This document shows, in pieces, positions 8,072 to 26,775 of a DNA stretch of 64,000 nucleotides; position 1 is the first letter of the stretch, and each line of letters starts with the position of its first letter. This stretch comes from Oryzias latipes. Its lineage: Eukaryota > Chordata > Actinopteri > Beloniformes > Adrianichthyidae. A model generated the notes under the pieces. It was not told the DNA's origin. It searched no databases and was given only the letters and a program-made list of their open reading frames with translations. A program made the translations under genes and the position numbers. The stretch lies in the NCBI RefSeq assembly GCF_002234675.1, contig NC_019859.2, positions 3,689,240-3,753,239 on the forward strand. Reading direction: 5' to 3'.

Positions 8072-8271
8072 CGTTGCTTTATGCGACTATCTTTGGTAAC
8101 GTCACCACCATCTTCCAGCAGATGTACGCCAACACCAACCGCTACCACGAGATGCTCAACAGTGTGAGAGACTTCCTCAAACTCTATCAGGTTCCCAAAG
8201 GCCTCAGTGAGCGAGTGATGGACTACATCGTATCCACCTGGTCCATGACCAGAGGCATCGACACTGACAAG
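8072..8271 (+). CDS. kcnh1: kcnh1 exon: end of S6 and C-linker
   Basis: This is the first visible exon of a voltage-gated EAG (Kv10.1) channel alpha subunit in the plasma membrane. It encodes [19 protein letters not shown], the cytoplasmic half of S6. The C-linker follows, with [17 protein letters not shown]. The acceptor is CTTGCTTGCAG ending at 8071 and the donor GT is at 8272. The exon enters after one base of a codon and leaves at phase 0, which fits the next exon exactly. Exons for the PAS domain, S1-S5 and the pore are not in the window. The sequence is closer to KCNH1 than to its paralogue KCNH5, judged mainly from the later exons. Confidence 0.95.
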
Positions 8272-8719
8272 GTTTGTGTGTGGAGGGAAAGTGTTTGAAA
8301 CTCTTTGTGTGACTGCTCATGGATGATCCTTGAGAGCTTCTTGATTAACTTTGTTTTCCTCCTGAGCCTAGAAATGAAAGAACTACTTTAAAGCTGAAGA
8401 ACCAGAAAATACAGAAGTAAAGCTTCAAAACTGGGATTTACTTTTGTGGCTTTGTCCGAATTCTCTCATAACTCCCTAACCCTAGGGAAACTATAGAGTT
8501 TGGGACTATCCAGTGCCCTGGATTTTAAGACAATACGAACACCATGCCTCCAATTTTTTTCTAACAGCAAATACCACGTCACCCATTTGTCAAAGTAAAA
8601 ACAAAAAACGAACATTTTTATATATATTTTTAAATCCACTGTGTGCTGCTGATGAAAACACGTACACAGCAAAAACTGGAGAGTTGAAATTTCGGTGTTA
8701 AACAAACCAGAGTTGATTT

Positions 8720-9030
8720 CCACTCTTGAAGTGTTATTTTAACACATTGCGATTCAAATGGTGTTCAGTGTTGGGGTTATTTATCAGTGTTACCCAAATT
8801 AGGCTAATTTAACACTACAGAGAGTCAATGCCCCTGGGCTTCTGCCTCGGAAACCCTGTGCAAGAAAGTACAAGGTGCTGACACTCTTGAAGTGTTATTT
8901 TAACACATTGCGATTCAAATGATGTTCAGTGTTGGAGTTATTTTGGCCAAGTGAAGTTCATTTGACACTATAGAGAGTCAAGGCCCCTGGGCTTTTGCCT
9001 CGGAAACCCTGTGCAAGAAAGTGCAACGTG
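8720..9030 (+). repeat. Left subterminal direct repeat, two ~150-bp copies
   Basis: Two copies start at about 8722 and 8882. Both begin with ACTCTTGAAGTGTTATTTTA, carry TGTTCAGTGTTGG and end with CCTCGGAAACCCTGTGCAAG. They contain GTGTTA/TTAACAC half-sites like those in the right-end array, as expected for transposase-binding subterminal repeats. Confidence 0.8.
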
Positions 9031-9399
9031 GTAATTTTCCATGAGCTGCGGCAATTTCATCAGTGCTGGAAAAAGTTCTTCACAAGCGGTAAGTTAAACT
9101 AATTTATGGGGAAAAAATACTGTTAAATGGCCCTTAGTATATACAATAATGTATCTAGAGAGAATTGTATAACTTTTCTACGCTTTTTTGTTGCTGTTAA
9201 GCTGCTTTCACGCAGCGGTTTCATCCAACCCGTCCGTGGCCTTCTGTAATGCACTACACGCACAAATGTTGTAAATGCAGCTTTACCTTAACAGCTAATG
9301 CTACACACACAGACTTCGAGTTTCAATGTTAAGTTAATGTAGAGGATCTGTGGCGCGATTTGAGCGCAGTGTGTTTTCAGCGGCGCGGCCTGAGTTTAA

Positions 9400-9417
9400 A
9401 AAAAAAAAAAAAAAAAA
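9400..9417. repeat. Poly-A run
   Basis: About 18 A residues inside the left non-coding part of the transposon. Confidence 0.9.
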
Positions 9418-9534
9418 GACCGTTGGCGAGGTTGTGGCTTTTAAACAATCTGGGACTCGTCTCTGGGACTTGACGTTTTCGGGGACTCGATTAGCAGGTG
9501 AAGTACAAATCCAAAATGGCGACTCAACGTCACA

Positions 9535-9725
9535 ATTCCATCCATCCGTCCATCCATCTTCTTAACCCGCTTTATCCCTTTCGGAGCAGCGGGGTTGCCG
9601 GAGCACGTCAGATTACTGTTAAGGAAAGGTGGGGGAAACCTTGGACAGGTCGCCAGTTTGTTCCACAGGGCCCATGGGGCTGGAGCGCTCCACATCCACC
9701 TTGGCGGACAGACAGACATGATAAA
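9535..9725 (-). repeat. Interspersed fish repeat, minus-strand copy
   Basis: CCATCCGTCCATCCATCTTC followed by AACCCGCTTTATCCC, GGAGCAGCGGGGTTGCCGG, CTTGGACAGGTCGCCAG and CACAGGGCCCATGGGGC is the reverse complement of the 3' body of the family seen at 2598-2832. It is an insertion within the transposon's left region. Confidence 0.7.
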
Positions 9726-10454
9726 GCCACCTGTTTGCTTAGGCCTACTCCCTTTCGAACTAATACAGGAACAGCAAGCCTTAACTTGGTCACAGACACA
9801 CGAAATTACGTTCTGTGTGAATGCAGTTAGGGGTTTTAGATAACTATTTTACATTTTAGGAAAATGTGTTTTCCTGCATTTATATAATTTTATTTATTTA
9901 CTATTTAGCAAGTTTCATGTATGCTTGAATCATGTAAAAAACTATTTTTGACTTTTAACCAGTTGTGGCATCCCTTAAAAAAACGTACTCAAAATTGCAT
10001 CTGTCCTGTGGAAGGAAGGAATTTTTTAGTGTCACTTTGCAAAAAGTTACTACATACTAAAAAACAAATTTTTACAGGTGGGACAAAATTTTAAGACAGA
10101 CACAACAGACACCCTTTCCTGCTCGCTGGATGTCATGTGAACGTAGATTATCCCAGAAATTAAATAGGGAATGTCGTTTTATTATACTCTGTATGTGTTG
10201 CAAAATGCATTTTACAAGCAAAATGTATACAAGTTTTTTTTTTTGTATTTTAATTGTTTTATTTAGAGCTATGGACAATGATTTAACCTAATATTTATGA
10301 AGTCTATCTTTGTGGGCTGGTAAGGGCTGTCAAATTTTTTTGTGTGGGTGGGGGGTTACTTAAGTATAATTGAATTTTATAACCCAACCTTGCTTTAATC
10401 AATATTTACACCACATTGTAAATGTAACTAAATTTTATAATCTAATTCTTGTAG

Positions 10455-10515
10455 GTCAATTGGTGTTGCTCTTCGGCTTCAGAGGGTCTCAGCTGGTAAA
10501 CCCTAAGTGAAGGAG
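10455..10515 (+). other. Possible 5' non-coding exon of the transposon gene
   Basis: A GGAG followed by a strong GTAAGT donor at 10516 lies upstream of the coding start, whose exon has a TTCAG acceptor at 10840. The 5' border is not determined. Confidence 0.35.
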
Positions 10516-10844
10516 GTAAGTCTTGATAGTCATGTTAGCAGTGTCAGCATGCCCCCCCTCCCTATTTTTTTGTTCTTTTATGGAAAGCTCACCCTAACAT
10601 ATACCAGACTTGGTGATTAGATAATTGACTTTGCATATTACATGGCTCACACACACACACCTCATTCTGGAACCCACTGCATGGGTTTTAAAAGTTTCAA
10701 AACTCTGTAGTGGATAACATAGTTGACAGGTTTATTACTGTGTCCATATGACTGTTTTTAATTTTAGCTTGAATTGTTTAAGTTGTATGCTAAAAAAATG
10801 CTTATTTCTGTCATGTTCTTTTCTTTTTGGTATGGTTCAGTAAA

Positions 10845-13800
10845 ATGCTGGTGCAGGTTTGCTACCGCCAACAGCAGAAATATGTAAAGCTGGATGAAGT
10901 TGATGGACAGTTTGATTTCATGCAACTGCATGAAAAAGGTTTGTTTTTAAATTTCGTTTGAAGAGGAAATACATTTTGTGTAGGTGATTTTGTATCCAAA
11001 TTAGTTTATTCATTTGTGAAGTGAGAATAGTGCTGGCTTAAAAGGTGCTCTCAGAAATATCTCATCTTTTCCAGTCATCGAGAGGTTTTGCCTGCCACCT
11101 GACGCAAAAGTAGTATACAAAGATGCAACAGGGACAGAAGTTGACGAAGACATTTTCAATGACCTTGTCAGCCAAGGCAGCGTTGTTTTAACAGTTTTCC
11201 CAAGTGATGGTGAGAAATGTAAAGGGTCAGTTACATGAAGCAATTCAGTGTCAAATGGTGGAACCTGAACTCTCAAATCAGTCTACAGAAAAAAAAAACA
11301 ATTTGTAGTATAATGTGGAATCCAACAAGATGCAATAAATGTTGCAACATTTGAACGAAGCTGTACATTTTTTTTTATTTCTGAAATTTATTTTTTCTCC
11401 TAGAGTTTACTGATTGCTCCTTGTCCTCTCCATCTGAATGGTCTGACTCAAGCTTCAGTTCAAGTGCAAGTGCATCAACTGTACTTCTAGATGAGATCCC
11501 AAGGAAAAAATCAAGAGTTGAAGGAACAATCAATGCAGTTTCTGCAAAAAAGGTTGGAACAAAGTTCAAATATCTCTGTCAACATTTTTTTTTGCCGTTT
11601 AATTACAATTTTTGTCTTCCCTAAGTTGATCGAAGCTGTACTTGGAGCCAGTTCAGGTGGTGAAGAGGTCCTTGAAGAATATCACGCATCACAGACTCTT
11701 AAAGATTCTACCAGAAGAAAGCTGGTCAATATAATAGTGGCCCACATGATTGATAAACATGGGTAATGTGCCCAGTTTTTGTAGACTTAAAAAAGAATCA
11801 AAACTGTTTATCTATTACTATAGTAATCCCAATTGACTCTCTTCCCAGACATCTCCCCACTAAAGCTGTTAGAGAAGAATATGCTCTTGGGATAGTGACA
11901 CTTTTTCCATCCCTGAAAGACCCATACTCCGAGAAAGGCTACGTATGTATAATTATTATTGTAATATTCGTTGAGATAGTATTTATGTTTTGTGTTGTTA
12001 GGTTCTGGGTGGGCATTTTGATTTCTGATATTCTTAAAAATGACAGACAATGCACTAAGTGTTAATGTATTTCCATTTCAGGAACACTTCTATGATGCTG
12101 CAAGCAGTACAGGATACATTTCTTGGCGTCTTAAGACCATCCAGAGAAAGATTCGACGAGAATCTACCACTTCAAATAGCCTCACTGGCCTTTCTCAAGG
12201 AGGAGGTAATACATCTGCAAACTGGTCATCTTATGTCAGCTAGTGTAGTAGAAGAGAGCAAAGATGGTTTTAGGTTTGTATGCTGTCACCTCTTTCACAA
12301 AAGTAGTTTGTATGTCTGACATTAGAAAGCCACTTTCCTCTTACTAGATTGGTTGAACAATCTCTTGGACTGATTTTTATTATATAATTTTTTTTGCATT
12401 TACCTATTAGCAACTAGGGCCTAATTTATTTAAAGTGTGTGTGTTCCTTTCTTCAGGGGGCCCTAAATTCCAGAGATCTGTTGTAGTTGAGGAGCAGCAG
12501 CTGGATGGAGATGCTTGTCAGGAGGCAATGTCTTTGCTCAATTATGCCACAGACACTACGCAAATTTTTCGAAAGATGAGAGAGACGTTTCAGCATCGGC
12601 AAAAACTCATCAATGACTCAGACAAAATGCTTGACATCCTGTCAATCTTCCCAAGATTCCTGGATACCAAAGGATTGGTAAGTATGCAATGATATTTTGA
12701 GATCTACTTGAAATGTGCAGAATGTGGTGATAGTATATTTTCTTTCTCATAGGTAAATCAAGACTTCATTCTCTTGTTTAATGACGAGGTATCCAACCGG
12801 CTGCTTCAGAAATGGGACCCGATCTTTAGATGCAACGTTATCAAAGAGGCCAAGCAGCTCACTTCAACACCAGAGCTTCGTCAGTTGTTGCATTCAGTGG
12901 AGAGTCCACAAGGAAGTGATGAGGCAATGAGTGAGTTTTGCTCTCTTGTGTTTACAATTCAATACTTTATTAACATAACTTTTTTTGTACTTTGCTTTGT
13001 GTAAGTCTTTAAAAGTTCAATGACCTAAAAGATCATGAAGTACATGAATTTGCAGTACATTTGAATGTAGGTTTGTTAAATCAGATTATTTGGGGCATAT
13101 CTAAGTTTCTCAGTTATTGCATCACCGCCAACTTATTTTAGCTGTCATTTTACTATTTATTGCGGCACATATCTACTTGAGACATGCAGAGTTTTAAATA
13201 TATGCAACGTTTTCAACAGAGTAATTGGTTTTTGCCCTTTTAATGATCATTGTTTTAAGTCTTTGCTGTTCATTCATTCTTTGTCCATAGCTTATGATGC
13301 AGAGATGGCCTCGCTTTTGTTGCTGTTATATCTCCTTCCACCACCACCTGGGGGACCAAAGTTTCCAAAAATCAGCGCTTCTGATGCAGTTGAAAAAGTT
13401 ATTGTCTTTCACAAGGTAATTTTACATTTGTTAATTTTGATCATGTGTAAAACTGGTAAAGAGTTAAATGAAACAAATTGTAGGCAAGTTTACTTTAACA
13501 TAGAATGCTTGTGTTCACTTGTGCAGTGCTATTTCTGACTTGAGTGTCCAATGTCCTTTTAAAACCTCAGTCTTGCTGCAGTTTGGAAGAACATCTTCAG
13601 AACCAGCAGAACCATCAGCCATACCTCCTAGCCGTTGGTCGCGAAAAGAGGAACATCGACAGATTCTACATCTCCATTGACAAGCGTCTCATCCCATGCC
13701 AGGCAAACCGCTCCCTTGGGGCATTTGATGAACTTTTTAAAGCTCATTTTGTTTTCAGTGTGTCTTATGATGGTGCACTTCTGAATTTCTACACCTTTTT

Positions 13801-13912
13801 GCAGACAACAGTTTATAACATTGATATGGGTAAAATGAAGGTGTCACCAAGAATTCGAGACATGAGAGCCAAACTCCTTAACCAGGAGGTGCTTCTCACA
13901 ACCCAGATTTAA
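10845..13912 (+). CDS. Spliced 532-codon transposon gene, PB1-like N-terminus, function unknown
   Basis: Ten coding exons join without a frame break: 10845-10938, 11075-11209, 11404-11552, 11626-11762, 11849-11942, 12082-12205, 12457-12677, 12753-12930, 13291-13415 and 13571-13912. Every intron is GT/AG and all phases agree, giving 1599 coding bases. Residues 1-76 look like a PB1/ubiquitin-like fold, with the acidic stretch VVYKDATGTEVDEDIF as an OPCA-like motif. A serine-rich linker follows. Next comes a helical segment with RKLVNIIVAHMIDKHG and GIVTLFPSLKDP, which recalls fish proteins annotated as SAMD3-like. The C-terminal part (RNIDRFYISIDKRLIP, FDELFKAHFVFSVSYD) is unassigned. It could be an accessory transposition protein or a passenger. 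The intron between exons 3 and 4 has a weak GTTGGA donor. Confidence 0.8.
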
Positions 13913-13943
13913 AGCCAGGACAATTAAAGGCATTTTGAGCAAA

Positions 13944-16220
13944 ATGCTCACATGTTTTCTGTGCAACAAAATTTTCCCCAGCAGTTGATTTCACATATAA
14001 GAGGTGAACATGGTTATTATCCTGGACCAAAGTTCAAGTTGTTTTGTTGTCAGCCAAGTTGTAGGCTTCAGTTTCAAACATATGCAGGCTTTAGAAAGCA
14101 CCTTAACATTATTCATAGCAACGTTGAACAAATTGTTCATACTTCAGCTGTTACTAATTTGCCTAGTGATCCAGTTTCACATGATTTGGAAGACCAATTT
14201 CATTCAACAGATCTTTCTCAAAGTTCATCCAGTGTTATTCTAGAGTCTAGTTCGTCCCATGTTCCAGAAAGTAGAGAAACTAGTGTTTCAGATTTTAGCA
14301 GGGATTCATCCAAAAAAATGTGCGCATCCATTGTGGCCAAACTGCAGGGTAGTGGCATTTCTAACAGTTTAGTATCTTCACTTGTGGGTGATTTGGAGGA
14401 ACTAACAAGCGAGCTTCGTTCAGAAGCAAAGCAAGCCATTATTTCTGCTTTACCTGCAACTGACCCCAACATATCTGTAATTAATGAATCTTTTGAAAAA
14501 TTGAAAAACCCATTCACTCATCTAAATACAGAATGGAAACGAAATAAATTCTTCAACCTAAAATGGGGAGTGGTAGAGCCCAGAGAAATAACACTGGGAG
14601 TGAGATACGACACCAGACGTAATCAAAAATCGGGTACTTATGATCAGGTACCTGTTAAGGATACTTTCATTTATGTCCCTGTTCTGGAATCTCTGAAGTT
14701 CATGTGTAAGAATCCAGAGATTTGTGCTCTCCTGAAGAGGGAGTGTAGGTCAGAGCCAGATGCGTATCATGACTTTTGTGATGGAAGTTACTTTAATACT
14801 CACCCCCTGTTTTCAGCCAAAAAGCATGCTTTACAAATTCAGCTATTCTATGATGATTTTGAAACGGCCAATCCCCTTGGGTCAAAACGTGGAATTCACA
14901 AAATTGGCTGCATTTATTTCATTTTAAGAAATCTACCTCCAAAATTTAATTCCATCTTGATGAACATTCATTTAGTATCTCTTTTCCACACACCAGATCT
15001 GCACAAGTACGGTTTTGATGTTATACTGGAACCACTGATAAGTGATTTGAAACAACTTGAAAGTCGAGGGATAAGTCTTCCATTTTCTGATGAGCCAATA
15101 TATGGAACAATTTCACAAATAACTGGAGATAATCTAGGGATGCATTCCATTCTTGGTTTTAACGAGTCATTCAACAGCCGACATTTTTGTCGCCTTTGTT
15201 TGGTTGAAAAAGATGATTGTCAAATAGTGTACACTGAGGATGATCCTAAAGTGGTCTTTCGTGAAAAGATGTGTTTACATGCATTGGCAGTCTCTTAAAG
15301 AAAATGTTAATTTAAAGTCACTGTATGGTATGAAAAGAAATTCTTCTCTAAATTCCTTGCAGTATTTCCATGTTTGCAGTAACTACTCTTTTGATATAAT
15401 GCATGATCTTCTTGAAGGTGTCGCTCAGTATGAGATCAAATTGCTATTTGAATATCTCACAAAACACTACATATCAGAACAAAACTTGCTTTCAAGGATC
15501 TATGGTTTTGACTATGGTTTTTTAGAAAGAAAAAATCGTCCCACTAAAATTATTTTGGATAGTCCAGGTAATGGCATTGGCTTGAACTCCATCCAGACAT
15601 TATGTCTCGTAAAAAACATTCCACTTATACTTATTCATTACCCGTCTTCAATTAGGAAAATTGGTCCCTTGTTGTTTTTCTGGTCTATGAGGTTTGAGGC
15701 TAAACATAAGTTGTTAAAAGATTGTTTCAAAAATTTCAAAAACATAACCAAATCACTCGCTAAAAAACATCAGATGGCCATTGCTTATCACTGGGAAACC
15801 TTAGCACTCAAACAGAAGGAATATGGGCCAATTAAATCATTTTCATTGAGAGAGGAAAATGTGGTAAACACTCAGATTCTTGAACAATCTAAAGATGTTT
15901 TCACAACAAGTTGGGTTAAAGTTAATGGTGTGGAGTACAGAGCTGGACTTGTTGTTTGCAGTTTGATGGAGGAAGAAATGCCTATCTTTATTCAAATACT
16001 TGACATTCTTTTAGTTAATGATGCCATTTTTTTATTGACTCAAAAATTATTTACGGAGTACTTTGATGAACATTACCATGCCTTTAAAGTGTCAAGTACT
16101 GAAGAAAAGTGTGTTATCAAAATAACAGAACTGAAATGTTACAAACCCTTTGATGTTCAAAGCTCATATGGAGCAACAGATGAAAGTTTTTTTGTTATTC
16201 CGTCATGTGTTATGTATTAA
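13944..16220 (+). pseudogene. Zinc-finger/transposase-like gene with two apparent frameshifts
   Basis: The gene begins MLTCFLCNKIFP, a C-x2-C knuckle, then changes frame in the TTTTCCCC run near 13980. It continues with HIRGEHGYYPGPK and a second finger, FCCQPSCRLQFQTYAGFRKH with LNIIH. The frame stays open to 15298. Near 15285 the reading changes again, from LCLVEKDDCQIVY to WQSLKENVNLKSLYG, and stays open to 16220. The core motif NYSFDIMHDLLEGVAQYE is typical of a fish transposase family. It may contribute a catalytic acidic residue, but I cannot place the full triad. No splice pair explains either shift well, so single-base indels or sequence errors are likely. It lies about 30 bases after the first gene. 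Confidence 0.7.
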
Positions 16221-16416
16221 TTGACTGCATGGGAGTAAAATATTAAATATGTTTGAAAATACATTTTTTGGGGAATTATTTCATTGCCGGTTATATAATT
16301 TCAACTATTGTATCGTATTGCAGTACTTGGTAAAACATTTTAGTTAATTGTTTAAAAAAACGCTTATTTGGGTAGTAGTTTTAGTGTCTAAATTTAGTGA
16401 GTTAAAAAGGAACTTT

Positions 16417-16910
16417 GACTCGGTGTTAATTTAACATATTTATTGAGTTAAACTATTGACTCTGACTCGGTGTTAATTTAACATATTTATTGAGTTAAAC
16501 TATTGACTCTGACTCGGTGTTAATTTAACATATTTATTGAGTTAAACTATTGACTCTGACTCGGTGTTAATTTAACATATTTATTGAGTTAAACTATTGA
16601 CTCTGACTCGGTGTTAATTTAACATATTTATTGAGTTAAACTATTGACTCTGACTTGGTGTTAATTTAACATATTTATTGAGTTAAACTATTGACTCTGA
16701 CTCGGTGTTAATTTAACATATTTATTGAGTTAAACTATTGACTCTGACTCTGTGTTAATTTAACATATTTATTGAGTTAAACTATTGACTCTGACTCGGT
16801 GTTAATTTAACATATTTATTGAGTTAAACTATTGACTCTGACTCGGTGTTAATTTAACATATTTATTGAGTTAAACTATTGACTCTGAATCGGTGTTAAA
16901 TGATTTAACT
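16417..16910 (+). repeat. 47-bp tandem array, 10 full units, right subterminal
   Basis: Units start at 16417, 16464, 16511, 16558, 16605, 16652, 16699, 16746, 16793 and 16840, with an eleventh partial unit at 16887. Each unit has GACTCGGTGTTAATTTAACA and ATTGAGTTAAACTATTGAC blocks. Units differ at only one or two positions. GTTAA/TTAAC half-sites occur in both directions in each unit. Confidence 0.95.
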
Positions 16911-17021
16911 ATTTTGAAAATGTTAATTTAACTCCGTAAAGTGTGGAGCTATATAAACCCTGAAAAAGTGTTGAAATTAACTCTGTGGGAGTTGAATCAA
17001 CACTCCACTTTTTGCTGTGTA

Positions 17022-20329: not shown

Positions 20330-22183
<1,854 letters not shown>

Positions 22184-24689: not shown

Positions 24690-24970
24690 TAGCTCGTTCA
24701 GCTGCAGTCTGCTGCAGCCCCTGAGCAAAAAGGAAAGCTACAGGAGCTCCTTTGTCCCAACAGCAGTTAGACTCTACAATGATACAGTGTAGGACTGCTG
24801 AAACTGCTGCTGTATTCACTTATTTACTTATGACATGTAATGTACTTTTACTACCATTTTTTATTTTTTACTACTATTTTTATTCTTACTCTTGGCATTT
24901 GTTTTTTCTAATTGTTATATTTCTCATTTGGCTGCTGTAACAACTCAATTTCCCCCGGGGATCAATAAAG
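24690..24970 (+). mobile_element. LINE 3' end (Rex1-like)
   Basis: The segment CTCCTTTGTCCCAACAGCAG corresponds to the SSFVPTAVRLYN-type C-terminus of a fish LINE ORF. A 3' UTR follows, ending TTTCCCCCGGGGATCAATAA. The tail runs directly into the pentanucleotide array. Confidence 0.6.
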
Positions 24971-25721
24971 TCCCACCCTACCCTACCCTACCCTACCCCA
25001 CCCTACCCTACCCTAGCCTAGCCTATCCTATCCTACCCTACCCTACGCTATCCTACCCTATCCTACCCTACGCTATCCTACCCTACCCTACTCTACCCTA
25101 CCCTACCCTACCCTACCCTACGCTACTCTATCCTACCCTACCCTACCCTACCCTACCCTACTCTATCCTACCCTACCCTACCCTACTCTATCCTACCCTA
25201 CCCTACCCTACGCTACTCTATCCTACCCTACCCTACCCTACGCTACTCTATCCTACCCTACCCTACCCTACTCTATCCTACCCTACCCTACCCTACTCTA
25301 TCCTACCCTACCCTACCCTACCCTACTCTATCCTACCCTACCCTACCCTACGCTACTCTATCCTACCCTACCCTACCCTACGCTACTCTATCCTACCCTA
25401 CCCTACCCTACGCTACTCTATCCTACCCTACCCTACCCTACGCTACTCTATCCTACCCTACCCTACCCTACGCTACTCTATCCTATCCTACCCTACCCTA
25501 CCCTACTCTATCCTACCCTACCCTACCCTACCCTACGCTACTCTATCCTACCCTACCCTACCCTACGCTACTCTATCCTACCCTACCCTACCCTACCCTA
25601 CTCTATCCTACCCTACCCTACCCTACCCTACGCTACTCTATCCTACCCTACCCTACCCTACCCTACGCTACTCTATCCTACCCTACCCTACCCTACCCTA
25701 CTCTATCCTACCCTACCCTAA
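24971..25721 (+). repeat. CCCTA pentanucleotide array with 30-bp higher-order unit
   Basis: About 750 bp of CCCTA units with variants CGCTA, CTCTA and TCCTA. From about 25200 to 25490 the variants follow a 30-bp (six-pentamer) order of CGCTA, CTCTA, TCCTA and three CCCTA units, repeated many times. The sequence lacks stops on the + strand, which produces a long but meaningless open frame. Confidence 0.95.
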
Positions 25722-26775
25722 CAAAAACAATAAAAAATAGCTACTGCTGCGGGCCATAATAAAGCCGCGAGAGGCATGGTTTGTCCTGCAGGTACTACTC
25801 ACCTTTGCTGCCCCCCTTTGACCCGCCCTCACTGGCAGAGGGGGTGCTACACTCACCTTAGTTCCCCCCCTCTGCCTCTGATACCCTGGTCAGAGCTGCA
25901 CCAAATGAAAAAAAAAAAAAAGTTTGATTCAAAATGGTGGCTGTTCTGTTTGTTTTTATCTCCATAGCAACTATTTTATATTTTGGTCGCCTGGGGCTGA
26001 CAAAGAGGTCTATGTAACTTTTAGAAGCATTTGCAAAGGTAAACTTTTGGATTTCCTTGGTAACTGAGGTTTTTTAGTTAACCACATCCACATTTTTTAT
26101 GTTTATATTGTAAAAAATATTGTTTGATTCATCTTGAGCCAACGATCCATGTATTAAATTTTCACAATATTCTGGTAGAAATGTGCGAGCAACACATTCC
26201 CACATTGTGCAGAAATGTAAAAATTGCCAAATTTCAGACTTTGCCTGTCAAGCCGTAGGTCCTGTGGCCATCCCATAATAACTTTAAAAGTTCCTTTGAT
26301 ATCCCCCACATTTGTGTTTTGGTTTCATTAGTAAATTTTGAAATATATATTTCCGAGCCCCATAAGAGGTTTTGTTCCCTTTAATGATTTTTTAAAGGTT
26401 TCTCCTGCTGTGATGTCATCATTTTTTGCAGGGGTGGTTGTCACTACACCCGAAATTCATTTTCACCGGGTACTAGCAGATTTTAAATGTGTGGCAACAT
26501 TTTTGTTCAAAGGTGCAGTAAGTAAAAATAAATTAAAAAACAATCTAGTCTATGCCTATATAGACTAGACAGGACGACATAGACAATAAAAAGGCTTTTG
26601 GTTACTGAGGTTCCTACATGGAAAACACAGCTTCATGCAAATGATGACACTGACCTCACTATGCCTCTGTTTCCTCCTAAAACCTTTTATTTGTGCTTGC
26701 TGAAGTTCATTTTGCAGATACGTTTGGCCTTGGTTACACAGTGACGTGTTTGTGTGTGTTTGTGTGTGTTTGCAG
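25722..26775. other. kcnh1 intron, nothing recognised
   Basis: Non-coding. A short TGTGTGTTTG repeat lies directly before the acceptor of the next exon. Confidence 0.5.

Follow-up and report, generated by a model that had tools for sequence, protein, structure and literature searches.

Introduction

In the plant transposon En/Spm, the protein TNPA binds subterminal repeats and is required alongside TNPD for transposition (PMC2613891, PMC1636069). CACTA elements in the strict sense have termini that begin with CACTA (PMC1636069), and the criteria for the CMCT clade (CACTA/EnSpm-Mirage-Chapaev-Transib) include 5'-CA..TG-3' termini (PMC12730594). In animals, the CACTA-like element SmTRC1 encodes a Transposase_21-type protein; for its other proteins, which lack that domain, the authors proposed a TNPA-like part. 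They reported related transposases in Danio rerio, but detected no counterpart of the second protein among further elements of animals or fungi (PMC1636069). The Kol0 lineage of Kolobok, found among others in vertebrates, is a two-gene animal DNA transposon in which KolX lies beside the transposase (PMC9587614). Here, we analyse a DNA transposon and its accessory gene of ten coding exons in a 64,000-nucleotide stretch of the Oryzias latipes genome (contig NC_019859.2, positions 3,689,240 to 3,753,239, forward strand; hereafter the window).

With a probability of roughly 0.7, we consider this gene to be the regular upstream gene of a two-gene, cut-and-paste transposon of CACTA/EnSpm-like (CMCT-clade) type, and its product to be the functional counterpart of TNPA. 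The element resembles maize En/Spm and the plant CACTA elements with TNPA and TNPD in its two proteins, one apparently a Tnp2-type transposase, its short terminal repeats, its subterminal repeated motifs and its defective deletion derivatives (PMC2613891, PMC1636069). It differs from En/Spm by its CACAG termini, for which reason it is not filed as a strict CACTA element, by a 2-bp target duplication, by a transposase with an N-terminal C2H2 zinc finger and by an upstream accessory gene with its own ten coding exons; the likeness of the product to TNPA is one of proposed role. SmTRC1 is likewise an animal element, with a Transposase_21-type protein, which the present transposase resembles below threshold, and a second protein, whereas the accessory protein described here is conserved among several families of one genome. 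Kolobok Kol0, compared by description only, also has a second protein (KolX) next to its transposase, but belongs to another superfamily and carries another accessory protein. Among titles and abstracts, no published description of the accessory gene was found; Repbase and subscription journals lay outside this scope, and an earlier description is possible.

Results

An accessory gene upstream of related transposases

The original prediction, made from the letters of the window alone, described ten exons with GT/AG introns, agreeing phases and 532 stop-free codons. This structure was reproduced: in the window copy the ten coding exons give a reading frame of 1,599 nt, 532 codons followed by a stop, with zero in-frame stops, GT..AG at 9/9 introns and phases that agree. 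Exons 1-9 have a higher G+C content (0.40-0.46) than the introns (0.29-0.34). In addition, four other copies (L009-L012) preserve all nine pairs of splice dinucleotides and an open frame, and spliced homologues in other families show 43-50% protein identity with mostly matching exon boundaries. Hence, the gene model does not result from chance. Two putative non-coding exons, absent from the original prediction, likely precede coding exon 1. Intron 6 (12206-12456) occurs in the window's family, whereas the C5, C24 and C13 relatives lack it and have a fused exon 6/7; an intron has been gained or lost within the transposon gene. About 107 bp within it are missing in three of the five siblings classed below as full-length-type.

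Searches of the same genome with a C-terminal piece of the transposase and with accessory exon 10 returned 128 and 54 rows, which were merged by hand into 76 transposase and 50 accessory loci (second pieces of a locus were dropped). At 23 of the 50 accessory loci, a transposase match on the same strand lies within 8 kb downstream; conversely, among transposase loci, 21 of 35 at 40% identity or more carry the accessory gene, and 2 of 41 below 40% do. The transposases downstream of accessory homologues share about 40-55% identity in several families. Several families thus have the same order, with the multi-exon accessory gene upstream and a DDE-type transposase gene behind it. Many of the transposases at the 41 more distant loci have open frames of about 880-930 residues.

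Spliced relatives without stops match the accessory protein at 244/492 (C5), 218/506 (C24) and 177/393 residues (C13, partial); among the other spliced loci compared, L044 has a stop. Upstream DNA was added for C5, C20, C24, C13 and C7, and the full gene from its first codon was obtained for C5 and C24 only. Because whole-locus tblastn alignments run through introns, these identities come from a splice-aware aligner that we wrote; it penalises stops, a few of which may hide behind invented introns (L051 and L053 have an extra one). In matching regions, the identities of the accessory protein and of the transposase are 149/276 (54%) and 275/496 (55%) for C5, 129/274 (47%) and 226/472 (48%) for C24, and 124/278 (45%) and 212/455 (47%) for C13. 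The two genes thus appear to diverge about as fast as each other. Across seven loci, among them two pairs of close relatives, pairwise identity in one gene goes with that in the other (Spearman 0.65, equalled or exceeded in 25 of 5040 permutations); an eighth was left out, its transposase piece being too short. As homologues adjoin related transposases in several families and diverge at a similar rate, the gene is best explained as a transposon accessory gene, and the accessory protein of the original prediction is supported.

The distance from accessory stop to transposase ATG is 8, 22, 24, 31, 44 or 100 nt in six families. The comparison covers 12 loci and L011; of the loci that gave none of these distances, four have no readable start and one broken locus has 178 nt. 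In this comparison, L059 is a deletion derivative of C5 type. L059 and L060 (contigs C20 and C21) are C5-type elements with deletions in both genes, and apparently represent a second, independent transposase-less derivative. On contig C8, three to four relatives of the element lie within 250 kb (14.74-14.99 Mb; 57-93% identity or lower), perhaps through local duplication. No relatives were confirmed in viral contigs or prokaryote genomes.

Copies of the element and their divergence

The 734-Mb genome was searched with 186 bases of exon 10; copy counts are lower bounds. At least 15 matches were found, five of them identical, the window included. They comprise six full-length-type copies (the window and L009-L013; the transposase of L009 carries an insertion), eight copies without transposase (L014-L019, L021 and L022) and one that is a fragment as far as read (L020). 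In six of the eight transposase-less copies, the same two points are joined (about 14137 and 16184). The element's left end occurs at 20 places. At no fewer than eight places, the transposase-less subfamily outnumbers the six full-length-type copies.

Introns of the full-length-type copies diverge by 0.7-1.1% from those of the window, which indicates that the family moved recently; the transposase is open (824-825 codons) in three of the six. The family is therefore young and not decaying. The accessory frame is open in five of the six full-length-type copies (L013 has one stop) and in one of the eight transposase-less ones. L013 is the reverse of the window copy, its accessory gene being broken and its transposase intact. 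Intact and broken genes are thus shuffled among copies, and the window copy is unremarkable: its intact accessory gene beside a broken transposase is an accident of that copy.

Pairs among the six full-length-type copies differ by 0-3 synonymous and 1-7 non-synonymous changes in the accessory gene, a near-neutral ratio, and the three open transposases differ by 7/14, 1/7 and 6/16 synonymous/non-synonymous codons. With these similar counts, the two genes are not visibly different among recent copies. Between the full-length and transposase-less subfamilies, the ratio of non-synonymous to synonymous divergence (dN/dS) of the accessory gene is 0.35-0.36 (95% confidence interval (CI) about 0.22-0.57; three tested pairs) and 0.33-0.43 over a further set of pairs; the synonymous divergence (0.106) exceeds that of the introns (0.07), which exceeds the non-synonymous one (0.038). 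Inside the transposase-less subfamily, two pairs gave 0.61 (CI 0.33-1.32) and 2.0 (CI 0.6-5.7). Constraint on the accessory gene is thus visible over the long run of the element, and not once the transposase is lost.

Domains of the two proteins

The 825-residue transposase of an intact sibling starts 31 nt 3' of the accessory stop. Its N-terminus carries a C2H2 zinc finger, for which the zf-met match (E 4.5e-5) clears the cut-off. Transposase_21 (PF02992) matches the window piece with E 1.7e-4 and siblings with 6.7e-4 and 6.2e-4, at 19-21 bits against a cut-off of 28.6. By eye, the motifs GDNLG, CRLC, KHHFMIH and RFEAKH follow one another in the open 825-residue sibling; its D and E were likewise picked by eye and not computed. 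The gene is read as that of a CACTA/EnSpm-like transposase. The two frame breaks that the original prediction had noted in the window copy are real when compared with intact siblings (at about 13985 and 15268-15279, residues ~14 and 444-449), and a third defect escaped it: 63 codons are lost in frame at about 15632 (residues 567-629), including a stretch that by eye corresponds to the CMCT-clade H(3-4)H motif.

The PB1-like start that had been proposed for the accessory protein was not borne out, as no PB1 domain matched its first 78 residues in Pfam at E<=10. The single Pfam family listed for this start is CIDE-N (E 0.019, below the curated cut-off), which matches on the GTEVDEDxF stretch. 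In the C24 family the match has E 0.091, again below cut-off, and the C5 start matches neither CIDE-N nor PB1. The sole solved chain listed for the CIDE-N-like start is 7v6e (DNA fragmentation factor-related protein 3; E 1.2). The first 75 residues resemble the beta-grasp domains of CIDE-N/PB1 type, a group of oligomerisation domains, through a weak likeness to CIDE-N in which every match is below threshold. No SAM domain was found in Pfam at E<=1 or, by pieces, at E<=10, and no enzyme family lay above the Pfam cut-off.

Ends and subterminal repeats

Terminal repeats and target duplications were read in the window's family. The window copy and its siblings end in CACAGCAAAAA..TTTTTGCTGTG, in agreement with the 5'-CA..TG-3' termini of the CMCT clade. 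The target duplication, for which the clade allows 2-5 bp, is of 2 bp and agrees on both sides in 6/6 elements with both ends read (window, L010, L011, L012, L013 and L017; TA in four, TT in two), so that the TA belongs to the target and not to the element. The motif GTGTTAA/TTAACAC occurs four times in the left 420 bp (8695, 8739, 8809 and 8900), 11 times in the right 640 bp and once in the 7.3-kb middle; the right-hand sites form a single tandem array and so do not count as independent copies. Transposase-less members mostly have an array unit of 43 bp in place of 47, and retain the palindrome GTGTTAATTTAACA (1-13 exact copies in the eight members).

Discussion

By analogy with plants, we infer a TNPA-like role, with binding of the subterminal repeats, as the best-supported one for the accessory protein. 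The protein would act in trans with the transposase, as TNPA does in plants. It may self-associate through its beta-grasp-like (CIDE-N/PB1-class) start and bind the palindromic repeats at both ends of the element; it would join the ends, control transcription from the promoter (which presumably sits by the left repeats), or both. The spacing of just 8-100 nt in six families suggests that a single transcription unit, a trait of TNPA-type accessory proteins, may yield both products, through a two-cistron mRNA or alternative splicing.

Several observations weigh against this proposal. Pfam searches recognised no DNA-binding domain in the accessory protein. The protein has no convincing relative among solved structures, matches at E 1.4 being taken as chance, and the predicted structures are too weak to use (pLDDT 56 for exon 10, and 41 for exons 6-8 of a relative). 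With an ATTAAA at 13923, separate mRNAs are conceivable. At L043, L047 and L053, about 1.2-1.3 kb lie between the accessory stop and the transposase match, through either an insertion or a longer spacer, so that not all loci are closely spaced. When each family is represented by a single locus (five), the correlation of the two genes is weak (Spearman 0.63; 7 of 120 permutations). Moreover, 27 of the 50 accessory loci have no downstream match to the C-terminal transposase query, five of which (L043, L049, L054, L059 and L060) show an N-terminal transposase piece invisible to that query. Finally, 39 of the 41 transposase loci below 40% identity have no recognisable accessory gene, and a second query (C13 exon 10) for a more distant one gave essentially the same loci. 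The near-identical, transposase-less copies L015, L016 and L018 share a lost accessory start codon and frameshifts, and have thus probably moved with proteins made elsewhere; their spread shows that the accessory gene is not needed in cis, and is compatible with action in trans.

The accessory protein could instead be enzymatic or face the host, for example by acting against silencing, without touching the transposon ends. The lack of a recognised DNA-binding domain would suit this, and accessory proteins of DNA transposons are very diverse, as exemplified by Kolobok (PMC9587614) and by TET/JBP genes (PMC12730594). However, the Pfam searches gave no enzyme family above cut-off, and a divergence rate equal to that of the transposase is what a direct partner would show; we regard this alternative as unlikely. 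Still less probable is an accessory gene that serves itself by helping transposase-less derivatives to spread, as a hyperparasite or as a repressor of the full element. Eight of the 15 copies do keep the accessory region without a transposase, six of these eight with the same junction, and accessory loci of other families have a truncated or deleted transposase (L054, L059 and L060). Yet the gene is open in just one of the eight transposase-less copies, the ratios measured inside that subfamily are compatible with no constraint, and L059 and L060 have lost much of the accessory coding sequence as well.

The original prediction had also raised a host gene captured by a decaying element and kept by selection, hence a candidate for domestication. 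We reject this reading, which seems very improbable whether the recently captured gene is taken as a passenger or as undergoing domestication at this locus. It could draw on the multi-exon structure with real splice sites, on the intact gene beside a broken transposase in the window and on the dN/dS below 1 between subfamilies. But the gene occurs in the same place and order in several families, with introns mostly alike where read; the match lists of three queries, in which not all loci were opened and diverged C4 and C22 matches were left unread, held no recognised single-copy host ancestor; and the window copy bears terminal repeats and a target duplication of its own. L066 on contig C18, which might be a diverged single-copy relative, resembles by eye a piece of C11 (L048) type and is no clear host gene. 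A domesticated gene would be single-copy, with its repeats lost and separate constraint; here, 15 copies of exon 10 were found, the ends are present and recent changes are near neutral. Copy number, terminal repeats and the recurring architecture thus speak against capture, with an accessory gene broken in 1/6 full-length-type and 7/8 transposase-less copies, and the decay that had been supposed does not apply to the family.

The TNPA-like accessory gene that we favour can be extended to a wider scheme, which we put forward as doubtful in its entirety. The gene might represent an undescribed accessory family of vertebrate CACTA-like transposons, in which a self-assembling protein of the CIDE-N/PB1 class would coat the palindromes and build the transposition complex with the transposase; transposase-less derivatives that retain the gene might modulate the full element in trans, and the fish proteins named SAMD3-like, to which the original prediction had likened a segment, might largely be this gene.

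Two-protein CACTA elements are known best from plants, and the second protein of the animal element SmTRC1 was described without recognised relatives (PMC1636069). At this locus, a ten-exon partner gene is fixed in one clade of an animal genome, about as conserved as the transposase, and accompanies subterminal repeats of the kind bound by TNPA in plants. With its young copies, it offers a concrete two-protein system in which the movement of animal CACTA-like elements can be studied experimentally. The case is also a warning that predicted genes of this type may be transposon genes.

Features of the window copy and its insertion site

Table 1 Features of the two-gene element in window coordinates
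Feature	Position	Strand	Remark
Left target-site duplication	8663..8664		TA
Whole two-gene DNA transposon, window copy	8665..17019	+	8,355 bp; CACAGCAAAAA../..TTTTTGCTGTG terminal inverted repeats; identical ends in sibling copies
Left terminal inverted repeat	8665..8687	+	25-nt arms including TA, 92% complementary
Left subterminal region	8695..9030		tandem duplication 8721-8877 / 8882-9030, 85% self-match
Putative non-coding 5' exon	9035..9088	+	start undefined; donor GTAAGT; sequence and donor in 9 copies
Putative second non-coding 5' exon	10455..10516	+	in 10 copies; donor GTAAGT in 9, GTAGGT in 1
Accessory coding exon 1	10845..10938	+	AG acceptor immediately 5' of ATG
Accessory exon 2	11075..11209	+	with exon 1 encodes the beta-grasp-like, CIDE-N-like start (sub-threshold)
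Accessory exon 3	11404..11552	+	serine-rich linker
Accessory exon 4	11626..11762	+	
Accessory exon 5	11849..11942	+	
Accessory exon 6	12082..12205	+	one exon with exon 7 in C5, C24 and C13 relatives
Accessory exon 7	12457..12677	+	
Accessory exon 8	12753..12930	+	
Accessory exon 9	13291..13415	+	
Accessory exon 10 and stop	13571..13912	+	51-60% identity to 12 relatives from other families
Transposase gene, broken in window copy	13944..16220	+	compared with open 825-codon sibling
Right subterminal array	16412..16899		47-bp unit x 10.4; palindrome GTGTTAATTTAACA, 10 exact copies
Right terminal inverted repeat	16997..17019	-	
Right target-site duplication	17020..17021		TA

The transposon is inserted within an intron of a gene for an EAG-type potassium channel (KCNH1/KCNH5), on the same strand. 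Window positions 8089-8277 (about) match KCNH1 with E 9.1e-36, and a second channel exon at about 20376-20650 was recognised by eye only. Further downstream, the frame listing holds an open frame of 299 residues (24841-25740), mostly made of the short repeat YPTLPYPTLPY.., which is probably a simple-sequence stretch.

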